Source of the DNA: Diogma glabrata
Taxonomy: Eukaryota; Arthropoda; Insecta; Diptera; Cylindrotomidae
Direction: 5' to 3'
Length of the DNA stretch: 64,000 bases
Assembly (NCBI GenBank): GCA_963693315.1
Contig: OY856186.1
Span: forward strand, 382,204,215-382,268,214
In this document: piece after piece, positions 9,373 through 54,983 of the stretch
How the letters are laid out: each line of letters begins with the position of its first letter
How positions within the stretch are numbered: the stretch's first letter is position 1
The notes under the pieces: generated by a model
The model's database searches: none
What the model was told of the DNA's origin: nothing
Seen by the model: only the letters and a program-made list of their open reading frames with translations
Position numbers and translations under genes: made by a program

Positions 9373-9407
9373 TTGTTGACAGTGGCGGGATTAGTTAGCT
9401 GTTAATA

Positions 9408-20308: not shown

Positions 20309-21007
20309 TGTTACGATTCTACATAAACGTAATGAAATACAGATAACAGAACCTTAATTTTCGATATACATAATTTCAAAAATAAAACAAGGTGTTATTC
20401 TTTTCTTAGAAAAAGGGTCAACATGAAATACAATTAAATTACTTTATGAATCGAATCAACATTACGTAAAATAATCGATTATTCTAATATTTTCCCAAGG
20501 TTTCAAAAAAGTGGCCTCGAATAGTCCAGAAATTATGCAGAATTGTATATGTGGAAATCGCTCTTGGAGAATTAGAGATAGTTTTATTTTAACCTGCGAT
20601 GAATGATGTAAAATGTGCGATACTGAAAATATATTGAAATTAATTGTAAACAAAAGGTTACACAGTGCATGCAAAATCGTGTAAATAGAAGTTATTGTAC
20701 TTCTTGTGAATAAAGTTTTAAGTGTTATTGAGTAGAAATATTTTGCGTATTATTTTGGAAGCTGTGTTACTGGAAAATTTCTGCAATCAACCGCTGGAGT
20801 TTCGAAGCTGTTGGAAGAATATTCTAGATAGGAATATTGTTGTTGTATTATTTTCTTGTTGTTGTGGAACAATTAAGGTGTTGAATACTTAATAAAATCT
20901 GGTGTGTTTGCTTACTAATCAGTGATCGAACTCATAAGGAGATTGGGAATTGCGTTTATCGAATTGAGAGTAAGGCCAATTCGAAGTAAGGTTAAATGAA
21001 CGTAACA
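20309..21007 (+). mobile_element. Solo LTR of the SAP-gag retroelement family
   Basis: 699 bp, TGTTACG…CGTAACA. It shares the 3' LTR's blocks: AAAATAATCGATTATTC near the 5' part, GAAGCTGTTGGAAGAATATT, ACTAATCAGTGATCGAACTC and GGCCAATTCGAAG. No internal region follows, so it is the product of LTR-LTR recombination or a fragment. I could not find a matching target duplication (GTAT left, GATT right). Confidence 0.85.
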
Positions 21008-21912: not shown

Positions 21913-24900
21913 CTAAAAATAAAACACATTATTTATAAATTTTAATTTTAATTTAAATATTTACTTACGTTAATCTCAAAATAAATATTTATTAGTTCGG
22001 ATACCGACTCAATTTTTCCACCAAAATATAAACGTCGTTTCAATATTTGTTTAAGCTTATCACTATCCAATCCTAAGCTGACAGCAAAATAATAAAATCC
22101 TTTAGTGTTTGGACATGTTAAAAATTGATTGAGTTCTTCCTCGATTTTGGCTTTTGTTGGAGATTTTTTGTTATTATTCATATCCATTATTTCTTGTTGG
22201 TTATTAGCGGTTATAGTAACTTGAGTCGAAGATCCAGCTTCGTTTATTACTTTAGGAGATTGTACAACTGCTATATTTTTCTTCAAACAATGAACATTAT
22301 TTTTACTTATGTTGGGTATATTTTTTAAATGGGATGTACTACTTAAATTCTTAATTCTAATTTGCTGAAAATATAAATGCGTAAAATCGATGCAGTTTAA
22401 AAGTAGTCGATTATTCAAGTTTGACGCTTTTAAAAAACTAAATAAGGTTAAACAAGTCGAAGCGGCAAGGTTTGCGTACAAGTAAAATCGGTTGTATCAT
22501 ATTAGTTTAAATAAAAAAATTAATTATTTATAAACAGAATTACGTTTTTTGAAAACTCTTGTTTTCTAAGCTTTAAAATAAAAAATTTAAACAATTAATT
22601 AATTTTTTTGAAATGCCATTGACAAATTAAAATATTATAAGTTTATCGAATATCGAAACCATATTAATTAATAAGATCCAATTAATTGGTTGCTTATGTC
22701 GTTGAGAGGTTTGACAATTTCTATTTTAAATCGCTAAGTCAACAAGCAGACGATTGTTGATGTGCATTCAAAAATAAAATCAACGTCACATCACGTTGTT
22801 TCTAAGAAAAAGGGTCAAAACATGAAATAAAATATATCCAGAATAATTCTTTCTTTGTAAAGAATGGATTTTCCTAGAATATACTAGAAATTAAACAGTA
22901 TTATATATAAGGAATTCATTTTGTAGACTAAGTTTAATTAGTTTAAATTAGACATGTATGTGAAGTTAGCCCGTTTTTCATCCCGTAAAAATGCGATGGC
23001 AACACTAAAAATTGATATCATGACACTTTCAACTGTCAGCCCAAAAATTATACTCTCAGCCCAGAAAAATAACTATCGCGACAGTTTTGTGTGAAATTAA
23101 CTTATGAAGTTAACTATTAATTAATGAAGGTTTAATTAATATAACGAGATTTTTGCAAAATTTTTTACCTTTGTGAAGTTAGCCCGTAATTCTATCCCGT
23201 AAAACAAGGAAAGTTTCATATGGTAATAATATTAGAAAACTTTATGCTATCATGATAGTTTATTTGAGTTTTATTACGAAACAATGCTATTTTACTTATT
23301 CATTAATTAAATTCAATTTTCAGTTAAAACTAATTTTTATTCAAATAACCTATTATAAAATGATTCCTCTAAAAATCTGCAACAAAACAATAACATCAAC
23401 TACTTCAATTAATTTTGTTTTTACTATATGCTACTCTCAGCCCGTTTTTTTCTGTCACGACAGTCGACAGTGAAGTTAGCCCGTAATTTTATCCATTGAA
23501 TTTATGTGGTAATAATTTTAGAAAATTTTATGCTATCATTATAGTTTATTTGGGTTTTATTGGGAAACAATGCTATTTACTTATTCATTAATTAAATTCA
23601 ATTGTCAGTGAAGTTAGCCCAGAATTCTATCACCGTAATAGAATCCCTGTGGTAACTGCACAATATGGGTAAAGGATCAAGAATATAAAATTTGATTTTT
23701 CCATTATCCGATTTCTGCGGAAAGCGGTTAAATCTAGATTATTTCTCAAAACTTTGGAGTAAATTGTCATTTTTGAGAATTTTTCAGTGTAGCGATAAAG
23801 ACGCAAGTAGACTGAAAACTAGTTGCTGGCCGGAAACTGTGGTACCTGCAAAAAACAGGTAAAGGTTTAATAATGTGTTATTTGATTTTTCTATTACCAA
23901 ATATCTGCTCCGAAATTAGAATCGATTCTCCGAACTTTGGAGTTAAATCTAGAATTGTCATTTTTGAGAATTTTTCAGTGTAGCGATACAGACGCTTTTA
24001 GGCTACAAACTAGCTGCTGGCCGAGAACTGTGGTACCTGCAGTAAAAATGCAAAGGTTTCATTATATGTAATATGAATTTTTCATTCCCAAATAACTGCT
24101 GTGAAATCTGAATAAATTCTCCGAACTTTGTTGTAAATTGTCATTTTCGAGAATTTTTCATTGTAGCGATACAGATGCTTTTGGGCTACAAACTAGTTGC
24201 TGGCCGGGAACTGTGGTACACGTACAAAAAATGCAAAGGTTTATAAATATGTAATATGATGTTTTTATTCCCAAAAAACTGCTGTGAAATCTGAATAAAT
24301 TCTCTGAACTTTGGAGTAAATTGTGAATTTTGAGAATTTTTCATTGTAGCGAAACAGACGCTTTTAGCCCACAAACTGGTTGCTGGCCGGGATTTGTGGT
24401 ACCCGCATGAAAAATTCGAAGGTTCAATTATATGTAATAAGATTGTTTTATCCCGAATATCTGCTGTGAAATCAGAAATAAATTCTCCGAACTTTGGAGT
24501 AAATTGTCATTTTTGAGAATTTTTCATTGTAGAGATACAGACACTTTTGGGCTATAAACTGGTTGCTGGCTGGGGATTGTGGTACCTGGACTAAAAATGC
24601 AGAGATTCAATTATATATAATATGATTTTTTTAAGTCCTAAATAACTGCTGTGAAATCTGAATAAATTCTCCGAACTTTGGAGTAAATTGTCATTTTTGA
24701 GAATTTTTCATTGTAGCGATACAGACGTTTTTGGGCTACAAACAAGTTGCTGGTCGGGAACTGTGGTACACGCACACAAAACGGGAAGGTTTATTCATAT
24801 GTAATATGATATTTTCATTCCCAAGAAACTGCTGTGAAATCTGAATAAATTCTCCCAACTTTGGAGTAAATTGTCATTTTTGAGAATTTTTCATTGTAGC

Positions 24901-27900
24901 AATACAGACGCTTTTAGCCTAAAACTAGTTGCTGGCCGGGAACTATGGTACACGCACACAAAATGTGAAGGTTTAATTGTATGTTATATGATTATTTCAT
25001 GCCCGAAAAACTGCTGTGAAATCTGAACAAATCCTCCAAACTTTGGAGTAAACAGTCATTTTTGAGAATTTTTCATTGTAGCAATACAGACGCTTTTTAC
25101 CTACAAGCTGGTCAGTGGCCGGGAGCTGAGGTACACGCACAAAAATTTCGAAGGTTCAGTTATATGTAATATGATTTTTTCATTCCCAAAAAACTGCTGT
25201 AAAGTTTGAATAAATTCTCCAAACTTTGGAGTAAATTTTCGTTTTTGAGAATTTTTCATTGTAGCGATACAGACGCTTTTGGGCTACAAACTAGTTGCTG
25301 GCCGGAAACTGTGGTACACGCACAAAAACTGTGAAGGTTCAATTGTATGTAATATGATTTTTTCATTTCCAAAAAACTGCTGTGAAATCTGAATAAATTC
25401 TCCAAACTTTGGAGTAAATTGTCATTTTTGAGAATTTTTCATTGTAGCAATACAGACGCTTTTAACCTACAAACTAGTTGTTGGCCGGGAACTGTGGAGC
25501 CTGCAGTAAAAATGCAAAGGTTTATTTATATGTAATATGAATTTTTCGTTCCTAAATAACTGCTGTGAAATCTGAATAAATTCTCCGAACTTTGGAGTAA
25601 ATTGTCATTTTTGAGAATTTTTCAGTGTAGCGATACAGACGCTTTCAGCCTGAAAACTAGTTGCTGGCCGGGAACTGTGGTACACGCACACAAAATGCGC
25701 AAGTTCAGTTGTATGTAATATGATTTTTTCATTCCCAAAAAACTGCTGTGAAATCTGAATAAATTCTCCGAACTTTGTTGTAAATTGTCATTTTTGAGAA
25801 TTTTTCATTGTAGCGACACAGACGGACGCTTTTGGGCTACAAACTAGTTCTTGTCCGGAAATTGAGGTAACCGTATGAAAAATTCGAAGATTCAATTATA
25901 TGTAATAAATTTTTTTTGTTCCCAAATATCTGCTGTGAAATCAGAATAAATTCTCCGAACTTTGGAGTAAATTGTCATTTTTAAGAATTTTTCATTGTAG
26001 CTATACAGACGCTTTTAGCTTACAAACTAGTTGTTGGCCGGAAACTGTGGTACACGCACACAATATGCGAAAGTTCAATTGTATGTAATAAAATTTTTAC
26101 ATGCCCAAAAAACTGCTGTGAAATCTGAATAAATTATCCAATCTTTGAAGTAAATTGTCATTTTTGAGAATTTTTCATTGTAGCGATACAGACGCTTTCG
26201 GGCTACAAACAAAATGCTGGCCGGGAACTAAAGTATACGCACAAAAAATGCGAAAGTTCAATTGTATGTTATATGATTTTTTTATTCCCAAAAAACTGCT
26301 GTGAAATCTGAATAAATTCTCCGAACTTTGGAGTAAATTGTCATTTTTGAGAAATTTTTATTGTAGCGATACAGACGCTTTTAGCCTACAAACTAGTTGC
26401 TGGCCGGAAACTGTGGTACCCGCATAAAAAATTCGAAGGTTCAATTATATGTAATAAGATTGTTTTTTTCCCAAATATCTGCTGTGAAATCAGAATAAAT
26501 TCTCCGAACTTTGGTGTAAATTGTCATTTTTGAGAATTTTTGTTTTTGCGATACTTACGCTTTTGGGCTACAAACTGATTGCTGCCGGGAATTGTGGTAC
26601 CTGCACTAAAAATGCAAAGATACAATTATGTATTATATGATGTTTTAATTCCCAAATAACTGCTGTGAAATTTGAATAAATTCTCCGAACTTTTGAGTAA
26701 ATTGTCATTTTTTAGAATTTTTCATTGTAGCGATACAGACGCTTTTAGCTTACAAACTAGTTGCTGGCCGGATTTTGTGGTACATGCACAAAGAATGCGA
26801 AAGTTCAATTGTATGTAATATGATTTTTTCATTCCCAAAAAACTGCTGTGAAATCTGAATAAATTCTCCAAACTTTGGAGTAAATTGTCATTTTTGAGAA
26901 TTTTTTATTGTAGCAATACAGACGCTTTTGGATTACAAACTAGTTGCTGGCCGGGAACTAAGGTACATGCACAAAAATTGCAAAGATTTAGTTGTATGTA
27001 ATATGATTTTTTTATTCCCAAAACACTGCTGTGAAATTTAAATAAATTCTCCGAACTTTGGAGTAAATTGTCATTTTTGAGAATTTTTCAGTGTAGCGAT
27101 ACAGACGCTTTTGGGTTATCAACTGGTTGTTGGCCGGGAAATGTGGTACCTGCACTAAAAATGCATAGATTCAATTAAATGTTATATGATTTTTTCATTC
27201 CCAAATAACTGCTGTGAAATCTGAATAAATTCTTCCAACTTTGGAGTAAATTGTTATTTTTGAGAATTTTTCATTGTAGCGATACAGACGCTTTTGGGCT
27301 ACAAACTAGTTGATGGCCGGGAACTATGCTACACGCACAAAAAATGCGAAGGTTCAATTGTATGTAATATGATTTTTTCATTCCCAAAAAACTGCTGTTA
27401 AATCAGAATAAATTCTCCGAACTTTGGAGTAAATTGTCATTTTTGAGAATTTTTCATTGTAGCGATACAGACGCTTTTGGGCTACAAACTGGTTGCTGGC
27501 CGGGAACTATGGTAAACGCACAAAAAATGCGAAAGTTTAGTTGTATGTAATATGATTTTTTCGTTCCCAAATAACTGCTGTGAAATCTGAATAAATTCTC
27601 TGAACTTTGGAGTAAATTGTCATTTTTGAGAATTTTTTTATTGTGGCGATACAGACGTTTTTGGGCGACAAACAAGTTGCTGGCCGGGAACTGTGGTGCA
27701 CGCACAAAAAATGAGAAAGTTCAATTGTATGTTATATGATTTTTTCATTCCCAAAAAACTGCTGTGAAATCAGAATAAATTCTCCGAACTTTGGAGTAAA
27801 TTGTCATTTTTGAGAATTTTTCATTGTAGCGATACAGACGCTTTTAGCCTACAAACTAGTTGCTGACCGGGATTTGTGGTACCCGCATGAAAATTCGAAG

Positions 27901-30900
27901 GTTCGATTATATGTAATATGATTTTTTTATTCCCAAATATCTGCTGTGAAATCAGAATAAATTCTCCGAACTTTGGAGTAAATTGTCATTTTTGAGAATT
28001 TTTCATTTTTGCGATACTGACGCTTTTGGGCTACAAACTGGTTGCGGGCCGGGAACTGTGGTACCTGCACTAAAAATGCAAAGATTCAATTATGTGTAAT
28101 TTGACTTATTTAATCCCAAATAACTGCTGTGAAATTTGAACAAATGCTCCGAACTTTCGAGTAAATTGTCATTTTTGAGAATTTTTCATTGTAGCGATAC
28201 AGACGCTTTTGGGCTACAAACTAGTTTCTGGCCGAGAACTGTGGTACCGCATGCAAAATTCGAAGGTTCAATGTTATGTCAAAAGATGTTTTTATTCCCA
28301 AATATCTGCTGTGAAATCTGAATAAATTCTCCGAACTTTAGAATAATTTGTCATTGTTGAGAATTTTTCATTTTTGCGATACTGACGCTTTTGGGCTACA
28401 AACTAGTTGCTGGCCGGGAACTGTGGTGCACGCACAAAAAATGCAAAGATTCAATCATATGTAATATGATTTTTTCATTTCCAAAAAACTGCTGTGAAGT
28501 TTGAATTGTTTCTCCGAACTTTGGAGTAAATTGTCATTTTTGAGAATTTTTCATTGTAGCGATACAGACGTTTTTGGGCTAGGCTACAAACTAGTTGCTG
28601 GCCGGAAACTGTGGTACACGCACAAAAACTGTGAAGGTTCAATTGTATGTAATATGATTTTTTCATTTCCAAAAAACTGCTGTGAAATCTGAATAAATTC
28701 TCCAAACTTTGGAGTAAATTGTCATTTTTGAGAATTTATCATTGTAGCAATACAGACGCTTTTAACCTACAAACTAGTTGTTGGCCGGGAACTGTGGTAC
28801 CTGCAATAAAAATACAAAGGTTTGTTTATATGTAATATGAATTTTTCATTCCCAAATAACTGCTGTGAAATCTGAATAAATTCTCCGAACTTTTTAGTAA
28901 ATTGTCATTTTTGAGAATTTTTCATTGTAGCGATACAGACGCTTTTAGCATACAAACTAGTTGTTGGCCGGGAGCTGTGGTACCTGCAGTAAAAATGCAA
29001 AGGTTTATTTCTATGTAATATGAATTTTTCATTCCCAAATAACTGCTGTGAAATCTGAATAAATTCTCCGAACTTTGTTGAAAATTGTCACTTTTGAGAA
29101 TTTTTCAATGTAGCGATACAGACGCTTTTGGGCTACAAACTAGTTGCTGGCCGGGAAATGTGGTATCTGCACGATAAATGCAAAGGTTTAATGATATGTA
29201 ATATGATTTTTTCATTCCCAAAAAAACTGCTGTGAAATCAGAATAAATTCTCCCAACTTTGGAGTAAATTGTCATTTTTGAGAAATTTTCATTGTAGCGA
29301 TCCAGACTTTCTCGGCCTACAAACTAGTTGCTGGCCGGGAATTGTAGTACACGCACAACAAATGCAAAGGTTTAATTATATGTAATATGATTGTTTTATT
29401 CCCAAATAACTGCTGTGAAATCTGAATAAATTCTCCCAACTTTGGAGTAAATTGTGATTTTTGAGAATTTTTCATTGTAGCGACACAGACGGACGCTTTT
29501 GGGCTACAAACTAGTTCTTGTCCGGAAATTGAGGTAACCGTATGAAAAATTCGAAGATTCAATTATATGTAATAAAATTTTTTTGTTCCCAAATATCTGC
29601 TGTGAAATCAGAATAAATTCTCCGAACTTCGGAGTAAATTGTCATTTTTGAGAATTTTTCATTTTAGCGATACAGACGCTTTTAGCTTACAAACTAGTTG
29701 CTGGCCGGAAATTGAGGTATTAGCACACAAAATGCGATGGTTCAATTGTATTTAATATGATTTTTGCATTCCCCAAAAACTGCTGTGAAATCTGAATAAA
29801 TTCTCCCAACTATGGAGTAAATTGTCATTTTTGAGAATTTTTCAATGAAGCGATACAGACGCTTTTGAGCTACAAACTAGTTGCTGGCCGGGAACTGTGA
29901 TACACGCACAAAAAATGCAGAGATGCAATTATATGTAATATGATTTTTACATTTCCAAAAAGCTGCTGTGAAGTTTGAATAAATTCCCCGAGCTTTTGAG
30001 TAAATTGTCATTTTTGAGAATTTTTCATTGTAGCGATACAGACGCTTTTGGGCTGCAAACTAGTTGCTGGCCGGGAACTGTGGTACCCGCACAAAAAATG
30101 CAAAGATACAATTATATGTAATAAGATTGTTTTCATTCCCAAATATCTGCTGTGAAATCAGAATAAATTCTCCGAACTTTGGAGTAAATTGTCATTTTTG
30201 AGAATTTTTCATTGTAGCGATACTGACGCGTTTGGGCTACAAACTGTTTGCTGGCCGGTAACTGTGGTACCTGCACTAAAAATGCAAAGATGCAATTATG
30301 TGTAATTTGATTTTTTTATTCCCAAATAACTGCTGCGAGATCTGAATAAATTCTCCGAACTTTCGAGTAAATTGTCATTTTTGAGAATTTTTCATTGTAG
30401 CGATACAGACGCTTTTAGCCTACAAACTAGTTGCTGGCCGGGAACTGTGGCACCCGCACAAAAAATGCAAAGATACAACTATATGTAATAAGATTTTTTC
30501 ATTCCCAAATATCTGCTGTGAAATCAGAATAAATTCTCCGAACTTAGGAGTAAATTGTCATTTTTGAGAATTTTTCATTGTAGCGATACTGACGCTTTTG
30601 GGCTACAAACTGGTTGCTGGCCGGTAACTGTGGCACCTGCACTAAAAATGCAAAGATACAATTATGTGTAATATGATTTTTTATTTCCCCAATAACTGCT
30701 GTGAAATCTGAATAAATTCTCCGAACTTTCGAGTAAATTGTTATTTTTGAGAATTTTTCATTGTAGCGATACAGACGCTTTTAGCCTACAAACTAGTTGC
30801 TGGCCGGAAACTGTGATACACGCACAAAAAATGCGAAAGTTCAATTGTATGTAATATGATTTTTTTATTTCCAAAAAACTGCTGTGAAATCTGAATAAAT

Positions 30901-33900
30901 TCTCCAAACTTTGGAGTAAATTGTCATGTTTGAGAATTCTTTATTGTAGCGATACAGACGCTTTTAGCCTGAAAACTAGTTGCTGGCCGGGAACTGGGCT
31001 ACATGCTCAAAAAATTTGAAACGTTAATTCCATATAATATGATTTTTTCATTCCCAAAAAACTGCTGTGAAATCTGAATAAATTCTCCGAACTTTGGAGT
31101 AAATTGTCATTTTTGAGAATTTTTCATTGTAGCGATACAGACGCTTTTGGGCTACAAACTAGTTTCTGGCTGGGAACTGTGCTACACGCACAAAAAATGC
31201 GAAAGTTCAATTGGATGTAATATGATTTTTTCATTCCCAAAAAACTGCTGTGAAATCAGAATAAATTCTCCGAACTTTGGAGTAAATTGTCATTTTTGAG
31301 AATTTTTCAGTGTAGCGATACAGACGCTTTTGGGCTATAAACTGATTATTGGCCGGGTAATGTGGTACGTGCACCAAAAATTCGAAGATTCAATTATATG
31401 TAATATGATTTTTTCATTCCAAAATAACTGCTGTTAATTCTGAATAAATTCTCCGAACTTTGGAGTTCTCAAAATGACAATTTACTCCATAGTTGGGAGA
31501 ATTTATTCAGATTTCACAGCAATTTTTTGGGAATGAAAAAATCATATTAAATACAATTGAACCATCGCATTTTATGTGCATATACCACAATTTCCGGCCA
31601 GCAACTAGTTTGTAGCCCAAAAGCGTCTGTATCGCTACAATGAAAAATTCTCAAAAATGACAATTTACTCCAAAGTTCGGAGAATTTATTCAGATTTCAC
31701 AGCAGTTATTTGGGAATGAAAAAATCATAAATGATTTAATTGAATCTTTTTTTTTTAGTGCAGGCACCACATTTCCCGGCAAACAACCAGTTGATAGCCC
31801 AAAAGCGTCTGTATCGCTACAATGAAAAATTCTCAAATATGACAATTTACTCCTAAGATCGGAGAATTTATTCTGATTTCACAGCAGATTTTTGGGAATG
31901 AAAAAATTATTACATACGATTCAACCTTCAAATTTTTTTATGTGTAGCACAGTTCCCGGCCAGCAACTAGTTTGTAGCCCAAAAGCGTCTGTATCGCTAC
32001 AATGAAAAATTCTCAAAAATGACAATTTACTCCAAAGTTCGGAGAATTTATACAGATTTCACAACAGTTTTTTGGGAATGAAAAAATCATATTATATACA
32101 ATTAAACCTTCAAATTTTTTGTGCATGTAGCCCAGTTCCCGGCCAGCAACTAGTTTTCAGGGCTAAAAGCGTCTGTATCGCTACAATGAAAAATTCTCAA
32201 AAATGACAATTTACTCCAAAGTTTGGAGAATTTATTCAGATTCCACAACAGTTTTTTGGAAATAAAAAAATCATATTACATACAATTGAACTTCCGAATT
32301 TTTTGTGCGTGTACCACAGTTTCCGGCCAGCAACTAGTTTGTAGGCTAGAAGCGTCTGTATCGCTACAATGAAAAATTCTCAAAAATAACAATTTACTCG
32401 AAAGTTCGGAGAATTTATTAAGATTTCACAGCAGTTATTTGGGAATGAAAAAATCATATTACACATAATTGTATGCATTTTTAGTGCAGGTACCACAGTT
32501 ACCGGCCAGCAACTAGTTTGTAGCCCAAAAGCGTCAGTATCGCAAAAATGAAAATTCTCAAAAATGACAATTTACTCCAAAGTTCGGAGACTTTATTCTG
32601 ATTTCACAGCAGTTTTTTTGAAATGAAAAAATCATATTACATACAATTTAAATTTCGTATTTTTTGTGCGTGTAGCACAGTTACCGGCCAGCAACTAGTT
32701 TGCAGCCCAAAAGCGTCTGTATCGCTACAATGAAAAATTCTCAAAAATGACAATTTACTCCAAAGTTCGGGGAATTTATTCAAACTGCACAGCAGCTTTT
32801 TGGAAATGAAAAAATCATATTACATATAATTGTATCTTTGCATTTTTTGTGCGTGTATCACAGTTCCCGGCCAGCAACTAGTTTGTAGCCCAAAAGCGTC
32901 TGTATCGCTACATTGAAAAATTCTCAAAAATGACAATTTACTCCAAAGTTTGGAGAATTTGTTCAGATTTCACAGCAGTTATTTGGGAATGAAAAAATCA
33001 TATATGATTTAATTGAATCTTTGTCCTTTTAGTGCAGGCACCACATTTCCCGACCAACAATCAGTTGATAGGCCAAAAGCGTCTGTATCGCTACATTGAA
33101 AAATTCTCAAAAATGACAATTTACTCCTAAGTTCGGAGAATTTATTCTGATTTCACAGCAGATTTTTGGGAATGTAAAAATCATATTACATACAATTTAA
33201 CCTTCAAATTTTTTTGTGTGTAGCACAGTTCCCGGCCAGCAGCTAGTTTGTAGCCCAAAAGCGTCTGTATCGCTACAATGAAAAATTCTCAAAAATGACA
33301 ATTTACTCCAAAGTTCGGAGAATTTATTCAGATTTCACAGCAGTTTTTTGGGAATGAAAAAATCATTTTATATGGAATTAAACTTTCAAATTTTTTGTGC
33401 ATGTAGTCCAGTTCCCGGCCAGCAACTAGTTTTCAGGCTAAAAGCGTCTGTATCGCTACAATAAAAAATTCTCAAAAATGACAATTTACTCCAAAGTTTG
33501 GAGAATTTATTCAGATTTCACAGCAGATTTTTGGGAATAAAATAATCATATTACATACAATTGAACTTTTGCATTTTTTGTGCGTGTACCACAGTTTCCG
33601 GACAGCAACCAGTTTGTAGCCCAAAAGCGTCAGTATCGCAAAAATGAAAAAAATCAAATTACACATAATTGCATCTTTGCATTTTTAGTGCAGGTACCAC
33701 AGTTACCGGCCAGCAACCAGTTTGTAGCCCAAAAGCGTCAGTATCGCTACAATGAAAAATTCTCAAAAATGACAATTTACTCCAAAGTTCGGAGAATTTA
33801 TTCTGATTTCACAGCAGATATTTGCGAATGAAAAAATCTTATTACATATAAATGTATCTTTTCATTTTTTGTGCGGGTACCACAGTTCCCGGCCAGCAAC

Positions 33901-36900
33901 TAGTTTGCAGCCCAAAAGCGTCTGTATCGCTACAATGATAAATTCTCAAAAATGACAATTTACTCCAAAGTTCGGGGAATTTATTCAAACTTCACAGCAG
34001 CTTTTTGGAAATGAAAAAATCATATTACATATAATTGTATCTCTGCATTTTTTGTGCGTGTATCACAGTTCCCGGCCAGCAACTAGTTTGTAGCCCAAAA
34101 GCGTCTGTATCGCTACATTGAAAAATTCTCAAAAATGACAATTTACTCCATAGTTGGGAGAATTTATTCAGATTTCACAGCAGTTTTTAGGAATGAAAAA
34201 ATCATATTAAATACAATTGAACCATCGCATTTTGTGTGCATATACCACAATTTCCGGCCAGCAACTAGTTTGTAGCCCAAAAGCGTCTGTATCGCTACAA
34301 TGAAAAATTCTCAAAAATGACAATTTACTCCTAAGTTCGGAGAATTTATTCTGATTTCACAGCAGATTTTTGGGAATGTAAAAATCATATTACACACAAT
34401 TTAACCTTCAAATTTTTTGTGTGTAGCACAGTTCCCGGCCAGCAACTAGTTTGTAGCCCAAAAGCGTCTGTATTGCTACAATGAAAAATTCTCAAAAATG
34501 ACAATTTACTCCAAAGTACGGAGAATTTATTCAGATTTCACAGCAGTTTTTTGGGATTAAAAAAATCATATTATATACAAGTAAACCTTCAAATTTTTTG
34601 TGCATGTAGCCCAGTTCCCGGCCAGCAACTAGTTTTCAGGCTAAAAGCGTCTGTATCGCTACAATAAAAAATTCTCAAAAATGACAATTTACTCCAAAGC
34701 TTGGAGAATTTATTCAGATTTCACAGCAGATTTTTGGGAAAAAAACAATCTTATTACATATAACTGAACCTTCGAATTTTTAATGGGGGTACCACAGTTC
34801 CCGGCCAGCAACTAGTTTGTAGGCTAAAAGCGTCTGTATCGCTACAATAAAAAATTCTTAAAAATGACAATTTACTCCAAAGTTCGGAGAATTTATTCAG
34901 ATTTCACAGCAGCTTTTGGGATTAAAAAAATCATATAACATACAATTGAACTTTCTCATTTTTTGTGCGTATACTTTAGTTCCCGGCCAGCAACTTGTTT
35001 GTAGCCCGAAAGCGTCTGTATCGCTACAATGAAAAATTCTCAAAAATGACAATTTACTTCAAAGATTGGATAATTTATTCAGAATTCACAGCAGTTTTTT
35101 GGGCATGTAAAAATTTTATTACATACAATTGAACTTTCGCATATTGTGTGCGTGTACCACAGTTTCCGGCCAACAACTAGTTTGTAAGCTAAAAGCGTCT
35201 CTATCGCTACAATGAAAAATTCTCAAAAATGACAATTTACTCCAAAGTTCGGAGAATTTATTCTGATTTCACAGCAGATATTTGGGAACAAAAAAATTTT
35301 ATTACATATAATTGAATCTTCGAATTTTTCATACGGTTACCTCAATTTCCGGACAAGAACTAGTTTGTAGCCCAAAAGCGTCCGTCTGTGTCGCTACAAT
35401 GATAAATTCTCAAAAATCACAATTTACTTCAAAGTTGGGAGAATTTATTCAGATTTCACAGCAGTTTTTTGGGAATAAAACAATCATATTACATATAATT
35501 AAACCTTTGCATTTGTTGTGCGTGTACCACAATTCCCGGCCAGCAACTAGTTTGTAGGCCAAGAAAGTCTGTATCGCTGCATTGAAAAATTCTCAAAAAT
35601 GACAATTTACTCCAAAGTTGGGAGAATTTATTCTGATTTCACAGCAGTTTTTTGGGAATGAAAAAATCATATTACATACAACTAAACTTTTGCATTTTTT
35701 GTGACTTTACCATAGTTCCCGGCCAGCAACCAGTTTGTAGCCTAAAAGCGTCTGTATCGCTACAATGAAAAATTCTCAAAAATGACAATTTACTCCAAAG
35801 TTCGGAGAATTTATTCAGATTTCACAGCAGTTATTTGGGAATGAAAAAATCATATTACATACAATTTAACCTTCGAATTTTTCATGTGGGTACCACAGTT
35901 CCCGGTCAGCAACTAGTTTGTAGGCTAAAAGCGTCTGTATCGCTACAATGAAAAATTCTCAAAAATGACAATTTACTCCAAAGTTCGGAGAATTTATTCT
36001 GATTTCACAGCAGTTTTTTTGGGAATGAAAAAATCATATAACATACAATTGAACTTTCTCATTTTTTGTGCGTGCACCACAAATCCCGGCCAGCAACTTG
36101 TTTGTAGCCCAAAAACGTCTGTATCGCCACAATAAAAAATTCTCAAAAATGACAATTTACTCCAAAGTTCAGAGAATTTATTCAGATTTCACAGCAGTTT
36201 TTTGGGAATGAAAAAATCATATTACATACAACTAAACTTTTGCATTTTTTGTGCGTTTACCATAGTTCCTGGCCAGCAACCAGTTTGTAGCCTAAAAGCG
36301 TCTGTATCGCTACAATGAAAAATTCTCAAAAATGACAATTTACTCCAAAGTTCGGAGAATTTATTCAGATTTCACAGCAGTTATTTGGGAATGAAAAAAT
36401 CATATTACATACAATTGAACTTTCTCATTTTTTGTGTGTGTAGCATAGTTCCCGGCCAGCAACTAATTTGTAGCCCAAAAGCGTCTGTATCGCTACAATG
36501 AAAAATTCTCAAAAATGACAATTTACTCGAAAGTTCGGAGAATTTATTCAGATTTCACAGCAGTTTTTTGGGAATAAAAAAATCATATTACATACAATTG
36601 AATTTTCGCATATTGTGTGCGTGTACCACATTTCGCGGCCAGCAACTGCTTTGTAGCCCAAAAGCGTCTGTACCGCTACAATGAAAAATTCTCAAAAATA
36701 ACAATTTACTCCAAAGTTGGAAGAATTTATTCAGATTTCACAGCAGTTATTTGGGAATGAAAAAATCATATTACATATAATTGAATCTATGCATTTTTAG
36801 TGCAGGTACCACATTTCACGGCCAACAACCAGTTGATAGCCCAAAAGCTCTGTATCGCTACACTGAAAAATTCTCAAAAATGACAATTTACTCCAAAGCT

Positions 36901-39900
36901 CGGAGAATTTATTTAAATTTCACAGCAGTGTTTTGGGAATAAAAAAATCATATTACATACAACTAAACCTTTGCAATTTTTGTGCATGTACCTTAGCTCC
37001 CGGCCAGCAACTAGTTTGTAGCCCAAAAGCGTCTGTATTGCTACAATGAAAAATTCTCAAAAATGACAATTTACTCCAAAGTTCGGAGAAACTATTCAGA
37101 TTTCACAGCAGTTTTTTGGGAATGAAAAACTTTTATTAGATACAATTAAACCTTTGCATTTTTTGTGCATGTAGCACAGTTCCCGGCCAGCTACTAGTTT
37201 TCAGGTTAAAAGCGTCTGCATCGCTACAATAAAAAATTCTCAAAAATGACAATTTACTCCAAAGTTTGGAGAATTTATTCAGATTTGACAGCAGTTTTTT
37301 GGGAATGAAAAAATCATATTACATACAATTGAACTTTCGCATTCTTTGTGCAGGTACCACAGTATCCGGCCAGCAACTAGTTTGTAGGCTAAAAGCGTCT
37401 GTATCGCTACAATGAAAAATTCTCAAAAATGACAATTTACTCAAAAGTTCGGAGAATTTATTCAAATTTCAAAGCAGTTCTTTGGGAATAAAAACATCAT
37501 ATTATACATAATTGTATCTTTGCATTTTTAGTGCAGGTACCACAATTCCCGGCCAGCAATCAGTTTGTAGCCCAAAAGCGTCAGTATCGCAAAAACAAAA
37601 ATTCTCAAAAATGACAATTTACTCCAAAGTTCGGAGAATTTATTCTGATTTCACAGCAGATATTTGGGAAAAAAACAATCTTATTACATATAATTGAACC
37701 TTCGAATTTTTTATGCGGGTACCACAGTTCCCGGCCAGCAACTAGTTTGTAGGCTAAAAGCGTCTGTATCGCTACAATAAAAAATTCTCAAAAATGACAA
37801 TTTACTCCAAAGTTTGGAGAATTTATTCAGATTTCACAGCAGTTTTTTGGGAATACAAAAATCATAAAACATCTAATTGAACTTTCTCATTTTTGGTGCG
37901 TATACTTTAGTTCCCGGCCAGCATTTTGTTTGTAGCCCGAAGGCGTCTGTATCGCTGTATTTACTTTAAAGATTGGATAATTTATTCAGATTTCACAGCA
38001 GTTTTTTGGGCATGTAAAAATTTTATTACATACAATTGAACTTTCGCATATTGTGTGCGTGTACCACAGTTTCCGGCCAACAACTAGTTTGTAAGCTAGA
38101 AGCGTCTGTATCGCTACAATGAAAAATTCTCAAAAATGACAATTTACTCCAAAGTTCGGAGAATTTATTCTGATTTCACAGCAGATATTTGGGAACAAAA
38201 AAATTTTATTACATATAATTGAATCTTCGAATTTTTCATACGGTTACCTCAATTTCCGGACAAGAACTAGTTTGTAGCCCAAACGCGTCCGTCTGTGTCG
38301 CTACAATGAAAAATTCTCAAAAATCACAATTTACTCCAAAGTTGGGAGAATTTATTCAGATTTCACAGCAGTTTTTTGGGAATAAAACAATCATATTACA
38401 CATAATTGTATCTTTGCATTTTTAGTGCAGGTACCACAGTTACCGGCCAGCAACTAGTTTGCAGCCCAAAAGCGTCTGTATCGCTACAATGAAAAATTCT
38501 CAAAAATGACAATTTACTCCAAAGTTCGGGGAATTTATTCAAACTGCACAGCAGCTTTTTGGAAATGAAAAAATCATATTACATATAATTGTATCTTTGC
38601 ATTTTTTTGCGTGTATCACAGTTCCCGGCCAGCAACTAGTTTGTAGCCCAAAAGCGTCTGTATCGCTTCATTGAAAAATTCTCAAAAATGACAATTTACT
38701 CCATAGTTGGGAGAATTTATTCAGATTTCACAGCAGTTTTTTGGGAATGAAAAAATCATATTAAATACAATTGAACCATCGCATTTTGTTTGCATATACC
38801 CCAATTTCCGGCCAGCAACTAGCTTGTAGGCTAAAAGCGTCAGTATCGCTACAATGAAAAATTCTCAAAAATGACAATTTACTCCAAAGTTTGGAGAATT
38901 TGTTCAGATTTCACAGCAGTTATTTGGGAATGAAAAAATCATATATGATTTAATTGCATCTTTGTACTTTTAGTGCAGGTACCACATTTCCCGACCAACA
39001 ACCAGTTGATAGCCCAAAAGCGTCTGTATCGCTACAATGAAAAATTCTCAAAAATGACAATTTACTCGAAAGTTCGGAGAATTTATTCTGATTTCACAGC
39101 AGATTTTTGGGAATGTAAAAATCATATTACATACAATTTAACCATCAAATTTTTTGTGCGTGTAGCACAGTTCCCGGCCAGAAACTAGTTTGTAGCCCAA
39201 AAGCGTCTGTATCGCTACAATGAAAAATTCTCAAAAATGACAATTTACTCCAAAGTTCGGAGAATTTATTCAGATTTCACAGCAGTTTTTTGGGAATAAA
39301 AAAATCATATTATATGGAATTAAACTTTCAAATTTTTTGTGCATGTAGCCCAGTTCCCGGCCAGCAACTAGTTTTCAGGCTAAAAGCGTCTGTATCGCTA
39401 CAATAAAAAATTCTCAAAAATGACAATTTACTCCAAAGTTTGGAGAATTTATTCAGATTTCACAGCAGATTTTTGGGAATGAAAAAACCATATTACATAC
39501 AATTGAACTTTTGCGTTTTTTGTGCGTGTACCTCAGTTTCCGGCCAGCAACTAGTTTGTAACTAAAAGCGTCTGTATCGCTACAATGAAAAATTCTCAAA
39601 AATAACAATTTACTCGAAAGTTCGGAGAATTTATTCAGATTTCACAGCAGTTTTTTGGGAATAAAAAAATCATATTACACATAATTGTATCTTTGCATTT
39701 TTAGTGCAGGTACCACAGTTGCCGGCCAGCAACCAGTTTGTAGCCCAAAAGCCTCAGTATCGCAAAAATGAAATATTCTGAAAAATGAAATTTACTATAA
39801 AGTGCGGAGACTTTATTCTGATTTCACAGCAGATATTTGGGAATGAAAAAATTTTATTACATATAATTGAACGATCGAATTTTTAATGCGGGTACCTCAG

Positions 39901-42900
39901 TTCCCGGCCAGCAACTAGTTTGTACGCTAAAAGCGTCTGTATCGCTACAATGAAAAATTCTCAAAAATGACAATTTACTCCAAAGTTCGGAAAATTTATT
40001 CTGATTTCACAGCAGTTTTTTGGAAATAAAAAAATCATATTACATACAATTGAACTTTCTCATTTTTTGTGCGTGTACCTTAGTTTCCGGCCAGCAACCA
40101 GTTTGTTGCCCAAAAACGTCTGTATCGCTACAATGAAAAATTCTCAAAAATGACAATTTACTCCAAAGTTCGGAGAATTTATTCAAACTTCACAGCAGTT
40201 TTTTGGAAATGAAAAAATCATATTACATATGATTGAATCTTTGCATTTTTTGTGCGTACACCACAGTTCCCGGCCAGCAACTAGTTTGTAGCCCAAAAGC
40301 GTCAGTATCGCAAAAATGAAAAATTCTCAACAATGACAAATTACTCTAAAGTTCGGAGAATTTATTCAGATTTCACAGCAGATATTTGGGAATAAAAACA
40401 TCTTTTGACATAACATTGAACCTTCGAATTTTGCATGCGGTACCACAGTTCTCGGCCAGAAACTAGTTTGTAGCCCAAAAGCGTCTGTATCGCTACAATG
40501 AAAAATTCTCAAAAATGACAATTTACTCGAAAGTTCGGAGCATTTGTTCAAATTTCACAGCAGTTATTTGGGAATAAATAAGTCAAATTACACATAATTG
40601 TATCTTTGCATTTTTAGTGCAGGTACCACAGTTCCCGGTCAGCAACCAGTTTGTAGCCCAAAAGCGTCAGTATCGCAAAAATGAAAAATTCTCAAAAATG
40701 ACAATTTACTCCAAAGTTCGGAGAATTTATTCTGATTTCACAGCAGTTTTTTGGGAATGAAAAAATCATATAACATACAATTGAACTTTCTCATTTTTTG
40801 TGCGTGCACCACAGTTCCCGGCCAGCAACTTGTTTGTAGCCCCAAAACGTCTGTATCGCCACAATGAAAAATTCTCAAAAATGACAATTTACTCCAAAGT
40901 TCAGAGAATTTATTCAGATTTCACAGCAGTTATTTGGGAATGAAAAAATCATATTACATACAACTAAACTTTCGCATTTTTTCTGCGTTTACCATAGTTC
41001 CCGGCCAGCAACCAGTTTGTAGCCCAAAAGCGTCTGTATCGCTACAATGAAAAATTCTCAAAAATGATAATTTACTCCAAAGTTCGGAGAATTTATTCTG
41101 ATTTCACAGCAGTTATTTGGGAATGAAAAAATCATATTACATTCAATTTAACCTTCGCATTTTTTGTGCGTGTAGCATAGTTCCCGGCCAGCAACTAGTT
41201 TGCAGCCCAAAAGCGTCTGTATCGCTACAATGAAAAATTCTCAAAAATGACAATTTACTCGAAAGTTCGGAGAATTTATTCAGATTTCACAGCAGTTTTT
41301 TGGGAATAAAAAAATCATATTACATACAATTGAATTTTCGCATATTGTGTGCGTGTACCACATTTCGCGGCCAGCAACTGCTTTGTAGCCCAAAAGCGTC
41401 TGTGTCGCTACAATGAAAAATTCTCAAAAATAACAATTTACTCCAAAGTTGGAAGAATTTATTCAGATTTCACAGCAGTTATTTGGGAATGAAAAAATCA
41501 TATTACATATAATTGAATCTATGCGTTTTTATTGCAGGTACCACATTTCCCGACCAACAACCAGTTGATAGCCCAAAAGCGTCTGTATCGCTACACTGAA
41601 AAATTCTCAAAAATGACAATTTACTCCAAAGCTCGGAGAATTTATTTAAATTTCACAGCAGTGTTTTGGGAATAAAAAAATCATATTACATACAACTAAA
41701 CCTTTGCAATTTTTGTGCATGTACCTAAGTTCCCGGCCAGCAACCAGTTTGTAGCCCAAAAGCGTCTGTATTGCTACAATGAAAAATTCTCAAAAATGAC
41801 AATTTACTCCAAAGTTCGGAGAAACTATTCAGATTTCGCAGCAGTTTTTTGGGAATGAAAAACTTTTATTAGATACAATTAAACCTTTGCGTGCGTGTAG
41901 CACAGTTCCCTGCCAGCTACTAGTTTTCAGGCTAAAAGCGTCTGCATCGCTACAATAAAAAATTCTCAAAAATGACAATTTACCCCAAAGTTTGGAGAAT
42001 TTATTCAGATTTCACAGCAGTTTTTTGGGAATGAAAAAATCATATTACATACAATTGAACTTTCGCATTCTTTGTGCATGTACCACAGTATCCGGCCAGC
42101 AACTAGTTTGTAGGCTAAAAGCGTCTGTATCGCTACAATGAAAAATTCTCAAAAATGACAATTTACTCAAAAGTTCGGAGAATTTATTCAAATTTCACAG
42201 CAGTTATTTGGGAATAAAAACGTCATATTATACATAATTGTATCTTTGCATTTTTAGTGCAGGTACCACAATTCCCGGCCAGCAATCAGTTTGTAGCCCA
42301 AAAGCGACAGTATCGCAAAAACAAAAATTCTCAAAAATCACAATTTACACCAAAGTTCGGAGAATTTATTCTGATTTCACCGCAGATATTTGGGAAAAAA
42401 ACAATCTTATTACATATAATTGAACCTTCGAATTTTTTATGCGGGTACCACAGTTCCCGGCCAGCAACCAGTTTGTAGGCTAAAAGCGTCTGTATCGCTA
42501 CAATGAAAAATTCTCAAAAATGACAATTTACTCCAAAGTTCGGAGAATTTATTCAGATTTCACAGCAGTTTTTTGGGATTAAAAAAATCATATAACATAC
42601 AATTGAACTTTCTCATTTTTTGTGCGTATACTTTAGTTCCCGGCCAGCAACTTGTTTGTAGCCCGAAAGCGTCTGTATCGCTACAATGAAAAATTCTCAA
42701 AAATGACAATTTACTTCAAAGATTGGATAATTTATTCAGAATTCACAGCAGTTTTTTGGGCATGTAAAAATTTTATTACATACAATTGAACTTTCGCATA
42801 TTGTGTGCGTGTACCACAGTTTCCGGCCAACAACTAGTTTGTAAGCTAAAAGCGTCTGTATCGCTACAATGAAAAATTCTCAAAAATGACAATTTACTCC

Positions 42901-45900
42901 AAAGTTCGGAGAATTTATTCTGATTTCACAGCAGATATTTGGGAACAAAAAAATTTTATTACATATAATTGAATCTTCGAATTTTTCATACGGTTACCTC
43001 AATTTCCGCACAAGAACTAGTTTGTAGCCCAAAAGCGTCCGTCTGTGTCGCTGCAATGAAAAATTCTCAAAAATCACAATTTACTCCAAAGTTGGGAGAA
43101 TTTATTCAGATTTCACAGCAGTTTTTTGGGAATAAAACAATCATATTACATATAATTAAACCTTTGCATTTGTTGTGCGTGTACCACAATTCCCGGCCAG
43201 CAACTAGTTTGTAGGCCAAGAAAGTCTGTATCGCTACATTGAAAAATTTTCAAAAATGACAATTTACTCCAAAGTTCGGAGAATTTATTCTGATTTCACA
43301 GCAGTTTTTTGGGAATGAAAAAATCATATTACATATCATTGAACCTTTGCATTTATCGTGCAGATACCACATTTCCGGCCAGCAACTACTTTGTAGCCCA
43401 AAAGCGTCTGTATCGCTACAATGAAAAATTCTCAAAAATGATAATTTACAACAAAGTTCGGAGAATTTATTCAGATTTCACAGCAGTTTTTTGGGTATGA
43501 AAAAATCATATTACATACAACTGAACTTGCACATTTTGAGTGCGTGTACCACAGTTCCCGGCCAGCAACTAGTTTTCAGGCTGAAAGCGTCTGTATCGCT
43601 ACAATGAAAAATTCTCAAAAATGACAATTTACTAAAAAAATCGGAGAATTTATTCAGATTTCACAGCAGTTATTTAGGAACGAAAAATTCATATTACATA
43701 TAAATAAAACTTTGCATTTTTACTGCAGGTACCACAGTTCCCGGCCAACAACTAGTTTGTAGGTTAAAAGCGTCTGTATTGCTACAATGAAAAATTCTCA
43801 AAAATGCAATTTACTCCAAAGTTTGGAGAATTTATTCAGATTTCACAGCAGTTTTTTGGAAATGAAAAAATCATATAACATACAATTAAACCTTCACAGT
43901 TTTTGTGCGTGTACCACAGTTTCCGGCCAGCAACTAGTTTGCAGCCCAAAAGCGTCTGTATCGCTACAATGAAAAATTCTCAAAAACAAAAATTTAATCC
44001 AAAGTTTGGAGAATTTATTCAAACTTTACAGCAGTTTTTTGGGAATGAAAAAATCATATTACATATAACTGAACCTTCGAAATTTTTGTGCGTGTACCTC
44101 AGCTCCCGGCCAACAACCAGCTTGTAGGTAAAAAGCGTCTGTATTGCTACAATGAAAAATTCTCAAAAATGACTGTTTACTCCAAAGTTTGGAGGATTTA
44201 TTCAGATTTCACAGCAGTTTTTCGGGCATGAAATAATCATATAACATACAATTTAACCTTCACATTTTGTGTGCGTTTACCATAGTTCCCGGCCAGCAAC
44301 TAGTTTTAGGCTAAAAGCGTCTGTATTGCTACAATGAAAAATTCTCAAAAATGACAATTTACTCCAAAGTTGGGAGAATTTATTCAGATTTCACAGCAGT
44401 TTCTTGGGAATGAAAATATCATATTACATATGAATAAACCTTCGCGTTTTGTGTGCGTGTACCACAGTTCCCGGCCAGTAACTTGTTTGTAGCCCAAAAA
44501 CGTCTGTATCGCTACAATGAAAAATTCTCAAAAATGACAATTTACTCCAAAGTTCGGAGAATTTATTCAGATTTCACAGCAGTTATTTGGGAATGAAAAA
44601 ATCATATTACATATAATGAAACCTTTGCATTTTTACTGCAGGTACCACAGTTCTCGGCCAGCAACTAGTTTGTAGCCTAAAAGCGTCTGTATCGCTACAC
44701 TGAAAAATTCTCAAAAATGACAATTCTAGATTTAACTCCAAAGTTCGGAGAATTGATTCTAATTTCGGAGCAGATATTTGGTAATAGAAAAATCAAATAA
44801 CACATTATTGAACCTTTACCTGTTTTTTGCAGGTACCACAGTTTCCGCCCAGCAACTAGTTTTCAGTCTACTTGCGTCTGTATCGCTACACTGAAAAATT
44901 CTCAAAAATGACAATTTACTCCAAAGTTTTGAGAAATAATCTAGATTTAACCGCTTTCCGCAGAAATCGGATAATGGAAAAATCAAATTTTATATTCTTG
45001 ATCCTTTACCCATATTGTGCAGTTACCACAGGGATTCTATTACGGTGATAGAATTCTGGGCTAACTTCACTGACAATTGAATTTCATTAATGAATAAGTA
45101 AATAGCATTGTTTCCCAATAAAACCCAAATAAACTATAATGATAGCATAAAATTTTCTAAAATTATTACCACATAAAACTCTCCTTGTTTCAATGGATAA
45201 AATTACGGGCTAACTTCACTGTCGACTGTCGTGACAGAAAAAAACGGGCTGAGAGTAGCATATAGTAAAAACAAAATTAATTGAAGTAGTTGATGTTATT
45301 GTTTTGTTGCAGATTTTTAGAGGAATCATTTTATAATAGGTTATTTGAATAAAAATTAGTTTTAACTGAAAATTGAATTTAATTAATAAATAAGTAAAAT
45401 AGCATTGTTTCGTAATAAAACTCAAATAAACTATCATGATAGCATAAAGTTTTCTAATATTATTACCATATGAAACTTTCCTTGTTTTACGGGATAGAAT
45501 TACGGGCTAACTTCACAAAGATAAATTAGACTGCGATAGTGTAAAGTTATTTTAAATTAGATTGCGATAATGTAAATAGTTTAAGTGGAATGTGATTATG
45601 TTAAACGAAAATTTACTGTAAAAGAAACGCTGTTTCGTGTATTACTTTGGACGCTGAAGATTGGAAATTTCTACAATCTTTCTAGATAGGAATACTGTTT
45701 GCTGTACTGTATTCCTGTTGTTGTGAAACAATAAAGTTGTGAGATGCTTAATGCTGTTTAAACTTGTTGTTTTTACCTACTAATCAGTTATAGAATCCAG
45801 AAGATGATTTGGAAATTACTTTTATTGAATTGAGAGTAAGGCCAATTCGAAAAACTTGACAATTGAATAGTTGACATGTCATTGTAGATCTTAAAGCGAT

Positions 45901-54945: not shown

Positions 54946-54983
54946 TTTTTCCCGCCCGGGAAAGCCCGGGATGCAAACTCTAA

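Follow-up and report, generated by a model that had tools for sequence, protein, structure and literature searches.

The window analysed here, a stretch of 64,000 nucleotides from Diogma glabrata, holds an insertion of 22.6 kb (22954-45522) with the same 9-bp target duplication, AAATTAGAC, on both sides (9/9). Terminal modules, an array period of about 182-183 bp, a single orientation switch and an inverted far end had all been proposed from the sequence, and all were found in the window, with the switch at 31466 (Table 1). The proposed numbers of about 43 monomers one way and about 74 the other agreed with our counts, which were 43 + and 74 - by motif and 42 + and 75 - by profile. The right end had been placed at 45521 with a duplication of 9-10 bp; the 9 bp held, but the element ends at 45522 and the 10-bp version takes in an extra T. 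In the genome copies, too, the duplication in the canonical position is 9 bp long.

The end motif has seven matches in the window compared with 0.06 expected by chance, the fourth copy on the left lying at 22960 inside the outer module. The two ends are related but unequal. The right terminus matches the second left module (from 23164) with 570 matches, 3 mismatches and one 11-bp indel, and the outer left module lacks a right-hand counterpart. The window element has no long open frame, the longest measuring 106 aa; two of its non-coding frames had no match in a protein collection, and an Rfam search of the window gave no match.

Table 1. Parts of the insertion and their positions in the window
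Feature	Position	Strand	Remark
Left target-site duplication AAATTAGAC	22945..22953	.	9/9 identity with 45523-45531; abuts element end
Left outer end module, ATGTAT-GTGAAGTTAGCCCGTTTTTC end type	22954..23163	+	missing from right end
Left inner end module	23164..23640	+	end-motif copies at 23173, 23470 and 23608
Degenerate half monomer, joint of end module and array	23641..23736	+	local alignment 30 vs shuffle maximum 22 (300 shuffles)
Left arm, ~43 monomers of ~183 bp	23737..31466	+	monomer motif and period
Foldback junction, orientation switch without spacer	31460..31500	.	sequence common to 16 other genomic places
Right arm, ~74 monomers	31467..44941	-	collinear with left arm, lengthened by block duplications
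Right-side degenerate half monomer	44942..45037	-	terminal-module alignment
Right end module, ATCTTT-GTGAAGTTAGCCCGTAATTC end type	45038..45522	-	end-motif copies at 45503, 45206 and 45057
Right target-site duplication AAATTAGAC	45523..45531	.	same 9 bp as 22945-22953

Relation between the two arms

The arms were compared monomer by monomer, in place of nucleotide BLAST block scans that gave no usable result, with monomers of 170-195 bp (2 of 115 fell outside this range and were omitted). The results showed that 33 of 42 left-arm monomers have a right-arm partner in the same succession, with 96.8% identity against a background of 86%, and that the arm-order score was 0.79 compared with a maximum of -0.11 among 200 shuffles. 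The arms are collinear inverted copies of each other rather than independent expansions. Both sides enter the array at one shared degenerate half monomer, the first two monomers are 98% alike, and the right arm shows block duplications.

We rejected the idea that the monomers are arrays of the transposase end motif: the score of monomer against end module was 18, compared with a shuffle mean of 17.6, and with the half monomer excepted 139 of 300 shuffles scored equally high. Moreover, among the least conserved positions of the monomer, two (61% each) fall within its AGCCC-like stretch. A fresh snap-back at the switch point of the window copy was also unsupported, since L42 and R73, the monomers nearest the switch, did not arise as copies of one another and the junction is common to 16 other places.

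Copies across the genome and a coding relative

The 1.33-Gb genome contains 316 exact end motifs. One hundred of these places were listed (97 on contig C1 and 3 on C3), and we tested all 21 convergent end pairs of at most 35 kb among them. An exact 9-bp duplication was present at the canonical place in 16 of the 21 pairs and an 8/9 match in one further pair; mispaired controls gave a match of 8 or more in 0 of 420 cases. The duplications are flush with the element ends and differ in sequence between loci. Further loci with paired modules bounding inverted arrays, which had been proposed as a check, are present. The duplication is missing in four pairs (C1 at 5.10, 132.3 and 336.2 Mb; C3 at 10.0 Mb); the pairing at 21.40 Mb is ambiguous because the left end and its flank are present twice. 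In each of the 21 elements an ATGTAT-type end is paired with an A(T/C)CTTT-type end, indicating that unequal ends are canonical. The pair test covered loci with the motif at both ends; at about 29 more loci among the 100 listed places, an exact match was found at a single end. Besides the window element, those at 134.4, 196.7, 323.9 and 344.8 Mb were read whole, as were small elements at 5.10, 13.59, 21.40, 31.65 and 366.7 Mb and at C3:10.0 Mb; at 361.2 and 447.5 Mb we read 141-161 bp per end (plus 8 kb of the middle at 447.5 Mb), and in the remaining paired elements 1.3-2.7 kb per end. Element patterns had no match in viral and genome contig collections, and a text search of the literature for the end motif returned one match, which was unrelated.

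Besides the window, the foldback junction was found at 16 places (on six other or the same contigs), with 0 matches for the reversed control. With profile matches below 150 bp omitted, 12 comparisons of long arms between loci were made, and in 10 of them the arms were collinear, clearly above shuffles. Between the window left arm and the 134.4-Mb element, 40 of 42 monomers could be paired in the same succession (mean identity 96.7%, background 86.6%); the score was 1.09, whereas none of 30 shuffles exceeded -0.03. For the right arm of the 134.4-Mb element, which has 10 monomers, the comparison with the window left arm was not above shuffles and that with the window right arm was barely so. The recurrence of the junction and the collinearity of arms between loci indicate that the long arms spread with the element, and the monomer order common to different insertion sites gives good support to the earlier inference that it moved as a unit. 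In duplication-flanked copies the arms measure about 2-15 kb, with lengths varying between copies. The junction is flipped relative to the ends in two of the six junction-bearing paired elements (105.7 and 323.9 Mb), suggesting that recombination between arms probably occurs.

Of the 19 paired elements for which enough sequence was read, 17 have homologous repeats, mostly as multi-kilobase arms; the coding subfamily, whose copies are near-identical, is among them. The arm repeats of six other elements were homologous to the window monomer above shuffles. Since elements of other subfamilies hold homologous arrays within their ends, the arm repeat, judged by this sequence homology, is an old part of the family. 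The foldback layout of long inverted tandem-repeat arms was found in the window element and others, but not in five small members: those at 13.59 and 366.7 Mb and C3:10.0 Mb have an array in one orientation only, and those at 5.10 and 21.40 Mb have the same ends and no homologous array. The monomer pattern has 2,650 matches genome-wide. The 100 matches listed are exact ones on C1 as far as 196.7 Mb. Five loci bearing the exact end motif account for 97 of them, and the other 3 are isolated exact matches (16.0, 19.3 and 131.1 Mb); no free-standing satellite array emerged from this listing.

The proposed search for a relative with a transposase also turned up one with a transposase-like frame. 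The element at C1:344.8 Mb shares the end types of the window element and is flanked by the duplication CAAAATTAG. Its long arm arrays (364 and 377 bp) are oppositely oriented, and it carries a single transposase-like open frame of 1,094 aa, which has six full-length, 100% stop-free genome copies among 47 match rows. Its protein looks Mutator-like. The motifs DATGG (418), VVTDFS (493), CCSHL (542) and SNSHIEN (705) follow in order and may correspond to the catalytic D, D, CxxH and E of Mutator (MULE); the 9-bp duplications fit the Mutator range of 8-11 bp, usually 9. Searched against Pfam whole and in pieces, the protein matched no MULE profile and nothing reached the cut-off, the one trace being ZSWIM1-3_RNaseH-like (E = 0.008, below cut-off). 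It had no match in viral contigs or among solved structures. The 9-bp duplications and the lack of any THAP or P-element Pfam match in the protein do not fit the P superfamily (7-8-bp duplication, THAP-type transposase). Nor do the 9-bp duplications and inverted ends fit a Helitron or Helentron with an internal satellite, which would have rolling-circle ends and lack a target duplication.

Proposed mobilisation in trans and rival explanations

Building on the observed anatomy, target duplications, common junction, between-locus arm order and coding relative with the same end types, we conclude that the window element is very probably a non-autonomous copy of a large foldback DNA transposon family, presumably mobilised in trans, whose coreless form spread. 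The transposase, probably the 1,094-aa Mutator-like protein of relatives with the same end types, would recognise an ATGTAT-type end and an A(T/C)CTTT-type end around GTGAAGTTAGCCCG; the element would be excised and then inserted with a 9-bp target duplication. The arms are arrays of the family's own ~182-bp repeat, and block duplication and unequal exchange would alter their length. In an ancestral event, two arms may have been joined head to head at one junction with no coding centre, after which the coreless two-armed form would have reached at least 17 places. Recombination between arms may have inverted the element interior.

It is unlikely that a small foldback element inserted and its arms then grew into satellite in place. 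Expansion into longer arrays has been proposed for the internal repeats of Tetris (PMC4079207), and the right-arm block duplications, the variable arm lengths and the existence of small members with short arrays point the same way, but a monomer order and junction common to different loci are not expected from independent growth. Growth in place is thus largely refuted already, and gene conversion between loci as the source of the common order would revive it; some later in-place change of length, compatible with the spread of long arms, is likely. Capture of a pre-existing satellite array by two inverted copies of a small transposon is very unlikely: the array is indeed bounded by end modules in opposite orientation, and members with the same ends lack a homologous array at 5.10 and 21.40 Mb, but the shared half-monomer entry, the alike first two monomers and the homologous arrays within the ends of other-subfamily elements speak against it.

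Against spread by segmental duplication or ectopic recombination in place of transposition, 16 of the 21 pairs have different, end-flush duplications; a segmental duplication should bring along the flanks and a single common duplication. The four pairs lacking a duplication and the two flipped junctions are in favour of such spread; it is already refuted for most of the 21 pairs and has scarcely any probability as a general account. The least probable rival is an assembly artefact in which an ordinary head-to-tail array was misjoined into a palindrome. Palindromic chimeras do occur as artefacts, and the window element was examined in the assembly, but its arms are ~97% rather than ~100% identical and differ in blocks, its flanks have nothing in common except short dispersed repeats away from the element boundary, and the same junction was assembled at 16 other places.

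A bolder reading, to which we give slightly less than even chances, is that the family has kept the ~182-bp satellite from its ancestors as a working part. A 'satellite transposon' lineage would then have passed from one-armed to two-armed forms, moving tens of kilobases of nucleosome-length repeats as a unit, inserting into the arms of other members and seeding inverted satellite arrays genome-wide.

Long inverted satellite arms are common to insertion sites with their own target duplications, and the coding relative, with its intact transposase-like frame, has long arrays too. These findings directly exemplify satellite arrays of several kilobases that move as parts of a transposon. The common junction can serve as a tag for tracing copies, and whether the repeats serve transposase binding or chromatin or are passive riders becomes testable.

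Comparison with known systems

Drosophila FB and FB-NOF, the comparison offered originally, have repeat-rich inverted arms, a 9-bp duplication and an optional coding centre. The window family resembles them in this layout; FB repeats are short and FB arms a few kb, whereas the window family has ~183-bp repeats and longer arms. Tetris and Galileo fit better and, as described, are the closest known systems, with arm repeats of ~210-220 bp and arms several times shorter than those of the window family. Because both have such arm repeats, the link between foldback elements and satellite-size repeats is not new in kind.

Tetris of Drosophila virilis is described (Dias et al. 2014, PMC4079207) with inverted repeats of up to 1,735 bp, internal ~220-bp tandem repeats and 8-10-bp target duplications; the copies described there lack coding capacity, and that account reports no autonomous copy. 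It also reports longer arrays of the repeat, up to 66 copies, and suggests that larger arrays may have disrupted transposition. By description, the window family shares the foldback layout, the satellite-size tandem repeats within inverted repeats and the short target duplication, but its arms reach about 2-15 kb and it has a coding relative. Galileo (Drosophila, P superfamily; PMC3573991) has a ~210-bp tandem repeat in subfamily F, inverted repeats of up to about 1.26 kb, 7-bp duplications and a P-type transposase. Long, internally repetitive inverted repeats with unequal repeat number at the two ends are common to both families, whereas in the window family the duplications are 9 bp long and no Pfam match of P type was found.

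Tm1 of root-knot nematodes (Mutator/foldback, Phantom subclass; PMC3169594) likewise has composite repeat-rich inverted repeats, asymmetric terminal motifs, mostly 9-bp duplications, and coding and non-coding members. However, its repeats of 13-15 bp are far from ~183 bp, and its FLYWCH and MULE transposase has 496 aa compared with 1,094 aa. Palindromic Tc1-mariner elements of Callosobruchus maculatus (PMC10849321; consensus 0.65-2.2 kb) are large, often fully inverted and non-autonomous, and resemble the window element in this form, but satellite arms are not among the features described in that account. Relative to these systems, what is new is how large the arms are in complete copies, the existence of a coding relative, and the homology of the arm repeat between subfamilies.

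Anatomy of the window element and its arms

The window element is an insertion that carries a satellite array with one reversal of orientation (Table). By motif spacing, we counted 43 monomers in the + and 74 in the - orientation (75 matches, one being a stray inside the left array), in agreement with the original prediction of opposed arrays of about 43 and about 74 monomers; counting by profile gave 42 and 75. Allowing up to 2 mismatches, the GTGAAGTTAGCCCG-type motif was present in seven copies, where 0.06 would be expected; the four on the left are in + and the three on the right in - orientation. AAATTAGAC was found in both flanks, flush with the two ends; the chance that two random masked flank 9-mers are identical is 2.5e-5, or 0.004 with 13 x 13 offsets. 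The left and right end modules matched at 570 of 573 aligned bases, plus one 11-bp indel. The insertion site lies within a direct repeat, which may bear on target choice.

Mean pairwise identity of the window monomers was 86.3% (n = 113), and adjacent monomers were no closer in sequence than distant ones. The two arms were collinear: 33 of the 42 left monomers matched right monomers in order (mean 96.8%), with an arm-order alignment score of 0.79 against -0.11 for the best of 200 shuffles, and of 288 rare-variant cases, 200 were shared with the paired monomer, versus 6% with random partners. Block duplications, at ~2.2% divergence (20 monomer pairs), account for the greater length of the right arm. 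The outer 22 left/right pairs differed at 98 of 4,017 sites (2.4%) and the inner 11 pairs were 4.7% divergent, and divergence of the end modules (3/573) was below that of the outer monomers (Fisher p = 0.0012). Variants at the outer-pair differences were seen in at least three other monomers in 61% of cases versus 32% expected under a simple mutation model, and this excess of array-wide variants fits exchange between monomers.

Elsewhere in the window, one copy of a dispersed ~172-bp repeat lies ~160 bp right of the element, and AT-rich tandem arrays stand near two copies of a ~140-bp repeat, possibly another repeat-carrying mobile element.

Coordinates of the window element, of arm arrays in related elements and of neighbouring features (bare numbers, window positions; other elements by Mb position on C1 or C3)
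Feature	Location	Description
Window element	22954-45522	
Satellite array	23743-44935	period 183; single orientation reversal at 31466
Direct repeat at insertion site	45522-45576	TAAATTAGACTGCGATAGTGTAAA; second copy 31 bp further, 92%
16-bp tandem repeat	18856-19124	TTTTTCGATGATATGA-type; window flank
16-bp tandem repeat	3728-4062, 5378-5665 of L015 (locus of the 366.7-Mb element)	TTTTTCGATGATATGA-type
Doubled left end and flank	C1:21400384, 21404148	in L011 (locus of the 21.40-Mb element); 3.8 kb apart
182-183-bp arm arrays	13.59 Mb, 366.7 Mb, one side of 132.3 Mb, 2.1-kb element on C3	homologous to window monomer
357-364-bp arm arrays	31.65, 132.3, 344.8 Mb	homologous to window monomer
377-bp arm array	other arm at 344.8 Mb	homologous to window monomer
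~172-bp dispersed repeat	45680-45851, 8706-8868, 9186-9350, 12351-12515, 20822-20985	five copies, ~77-78% identity
~140-bp dispersed repeat	5406-5548, 17276-17401, 56646-56781	89-92%
AT-rich tandem arrays	4338-5117, 17439-17991	
9-bp minisatellite	54871-55725	~79 copies of CACCATGAC within a 284-aa Gly-His-rich open frame, - strand
SAP domain and retrotransposon frames	9399-11331	SAP domain frame, then retrotransposon gag + zinc-knuckle + aspartyl protease frame
Tyrosine recombinase-like fragment	7695-8078	Phage_integrase E = 1.4e-5, below cut-off

End pairs, junction and arm order across the genome

We searched the 1.33-Gb assembly (1,788 contigs) for the end motif and found 157 + 159 matches; the reversed motif, used as a control, gave 1 + 1. 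Pairing drew on 100 of these 316 places and took convergent pairs of up to 35 kb, which among the matches listed gave 21 pairs sized 2.1 to 34.2 kb (20 on C1, including the window element, and one on C3). Each pair combined one ATGTAT-type end with one ATCTTT, ACCTTT, ACTTTT or AACTTT end, indicating that the extra left module of the window element is the canonical second end type. At the canonical place, the target duplication was an exact 9 bp in 16 of the 21 pairs, 8/9 in one and missing in four; none of 420 mispaired end controls reached 8, the top value being 7, in three. In eight elements, the two end modules of the same element were 0.4-1.7% apart; between elements the mean divergence was 1.8%. 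The 21.40-Mb element has two copies of its left end plus flank, as though a single duplication had copied both.

Three other elements of the window element's type, read at full length at 134.4, 196.7 and 323.9 Mb, carried 11 + / 78 -, 37 / 39 and 59 / 49 monomers, each with one orientation switch and an identical sequence at the junction, where the two arms meet head to head; one arm held a non-satellite stretch of 1.2 kb at 134.4 Mb and of 1.9 kb at 323.9 Mb. Genome-wide, the junction occurred at 16 places at no more than 3 mismatches, 13 of them exact, not counting the window's own copy with its 1-bp deletion; the control gave 0. Relative to the ends, junctions ran one way in four of six paired elements and the opposite way in two (105.7 and 323.9 Mb), as an inversion between arms would produce.

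Monomer order also recurred between loci. The window left arm paired 40 of 42 monomers with the 134.4-Mb element at 96.7%, versus a background of 86.6%, and the right arm gave 39 pairs at 96.9% with the flipped 323.9-Mb arm. Ten of 12 comparisons were clearly above shuffles (30 each); of the two with the 10-monomer short arm at 134.4 Mb, one was not above shuffles and the other barely so. Long arms that had grown independently at each insertion site would yield neither a common monomer order nor a common junction. Together, the shared order and junction argue that the long arms travelled with the element; their size at each insertion may have differed from the present one, and the two arms would have been joined during the family's history. 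The original prediction had proposed a search for paired modules with a 9-10-bp duplication at other loci and had inferred movement as a unit; such pairs were found, and the recurring arm order and junction support movement as a unit.

Satellite distribution and the coding relative

Arm repeats of other subfamilies scored at best 55.5-84 against the window monomer, versus 50.5 for the largest shuffle. The two sides were opposed in repeat orientation at 31.65, 132.3 and 344.8 Mb, and a single-orientation repeat lay on the ATGTAT-end side at 13.59 Mb, 366.7 Mb and C3:10.0 Mb. Elements at 285.2, 304.8 and 336.2 Mb matched the monomer profile partially at both ends, and eight ATCTTT-end elements, window included, had window-type monomers on both sides. 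Those at 5.10 and 21.40 Mb had no homologous array; the ATCTTT-end elements at 361.2 and 447.5 Mb were left out because too little sequence was read. Homologous repeats were present in 17 of the 19 elements read far enough and, judged by this homology, the satellite is part of the transposon family. The 447.5-Mb element (34 kb) has a non-satellite middle of ~7.9 kb that lacks the transposase-like gene. The TTTTTCGATGATATGA-type repeat, found in the window flank and twice within the 5.5-kb element at 366.7 Mb, is another small repeat that may travel with the family.

The monomer pattern had 2,650 matches genome-wide, 100 being expected from the window element alone. Among the 100 matches listed (exact, C1 up to 196.7 Mb, assembled arrays only), 97 fell within five loci that contain the end motif in exact form, and three were isolated as exact matches elsewhere, where diverged arrays may lie. 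No free array was evident among these exact matches. The coding element at 304.8 Mb sits within window-type monomers, which occupy both flanks; the one at 336.2 Mb has them only on its right side and lacks a duplication.

A relative with a transposase-like gene, the kind of element that the original prediction had proposed to search for, was found at C1:344.8 Mb. This 22.8-kb element has the duplication CAAAATTAG and opposed arms of 364- and 377-bp repeats flanking a 1,094-aa open frame. Searched with this protein, the genome yielded 47 match rows, 33 with stops; six full-length copies were 100% identical and without stops, three of them in the study pairs (304.8, 336.2 and 344.8 Mb). These near-identical copies suggest recent activity. 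The full protein had no usable match in Pfam or among solved structures. Below Pfam cut-offs, its C-terminal piece is similar to ubiquitin/SUMO peptidases (Peptidase_C98 E = 9e-5, UCH E = 9e-4) and the piece from the middle to an RNaseH-like domain (ZSWIM1-3, E = 0.008). The residues D, D, CxxH and E look Mutator-like in their order and spacing, and the family is a candidate Mutator member. The putative transposase would act in trans on non-coding copies.

Comparison with known foldback elements

Tetris (PMC4079207) and Galileo (PMC3573991) are foldback elements already linked to 210-220-bp arm repeats, and Tm1 has asymmetric ends, 9-bp duplications and a Mutator-type transposase (PMC3169594). 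The excerpts of open-licence literature searched described no complete foldback element whose arms reach this size. Compared with Tetris, Galileo and Tm1, the Diogma glabrata family differs in its scale, in including a coding relative whose end types are the same, and in a long-array order common to different insertion sites.
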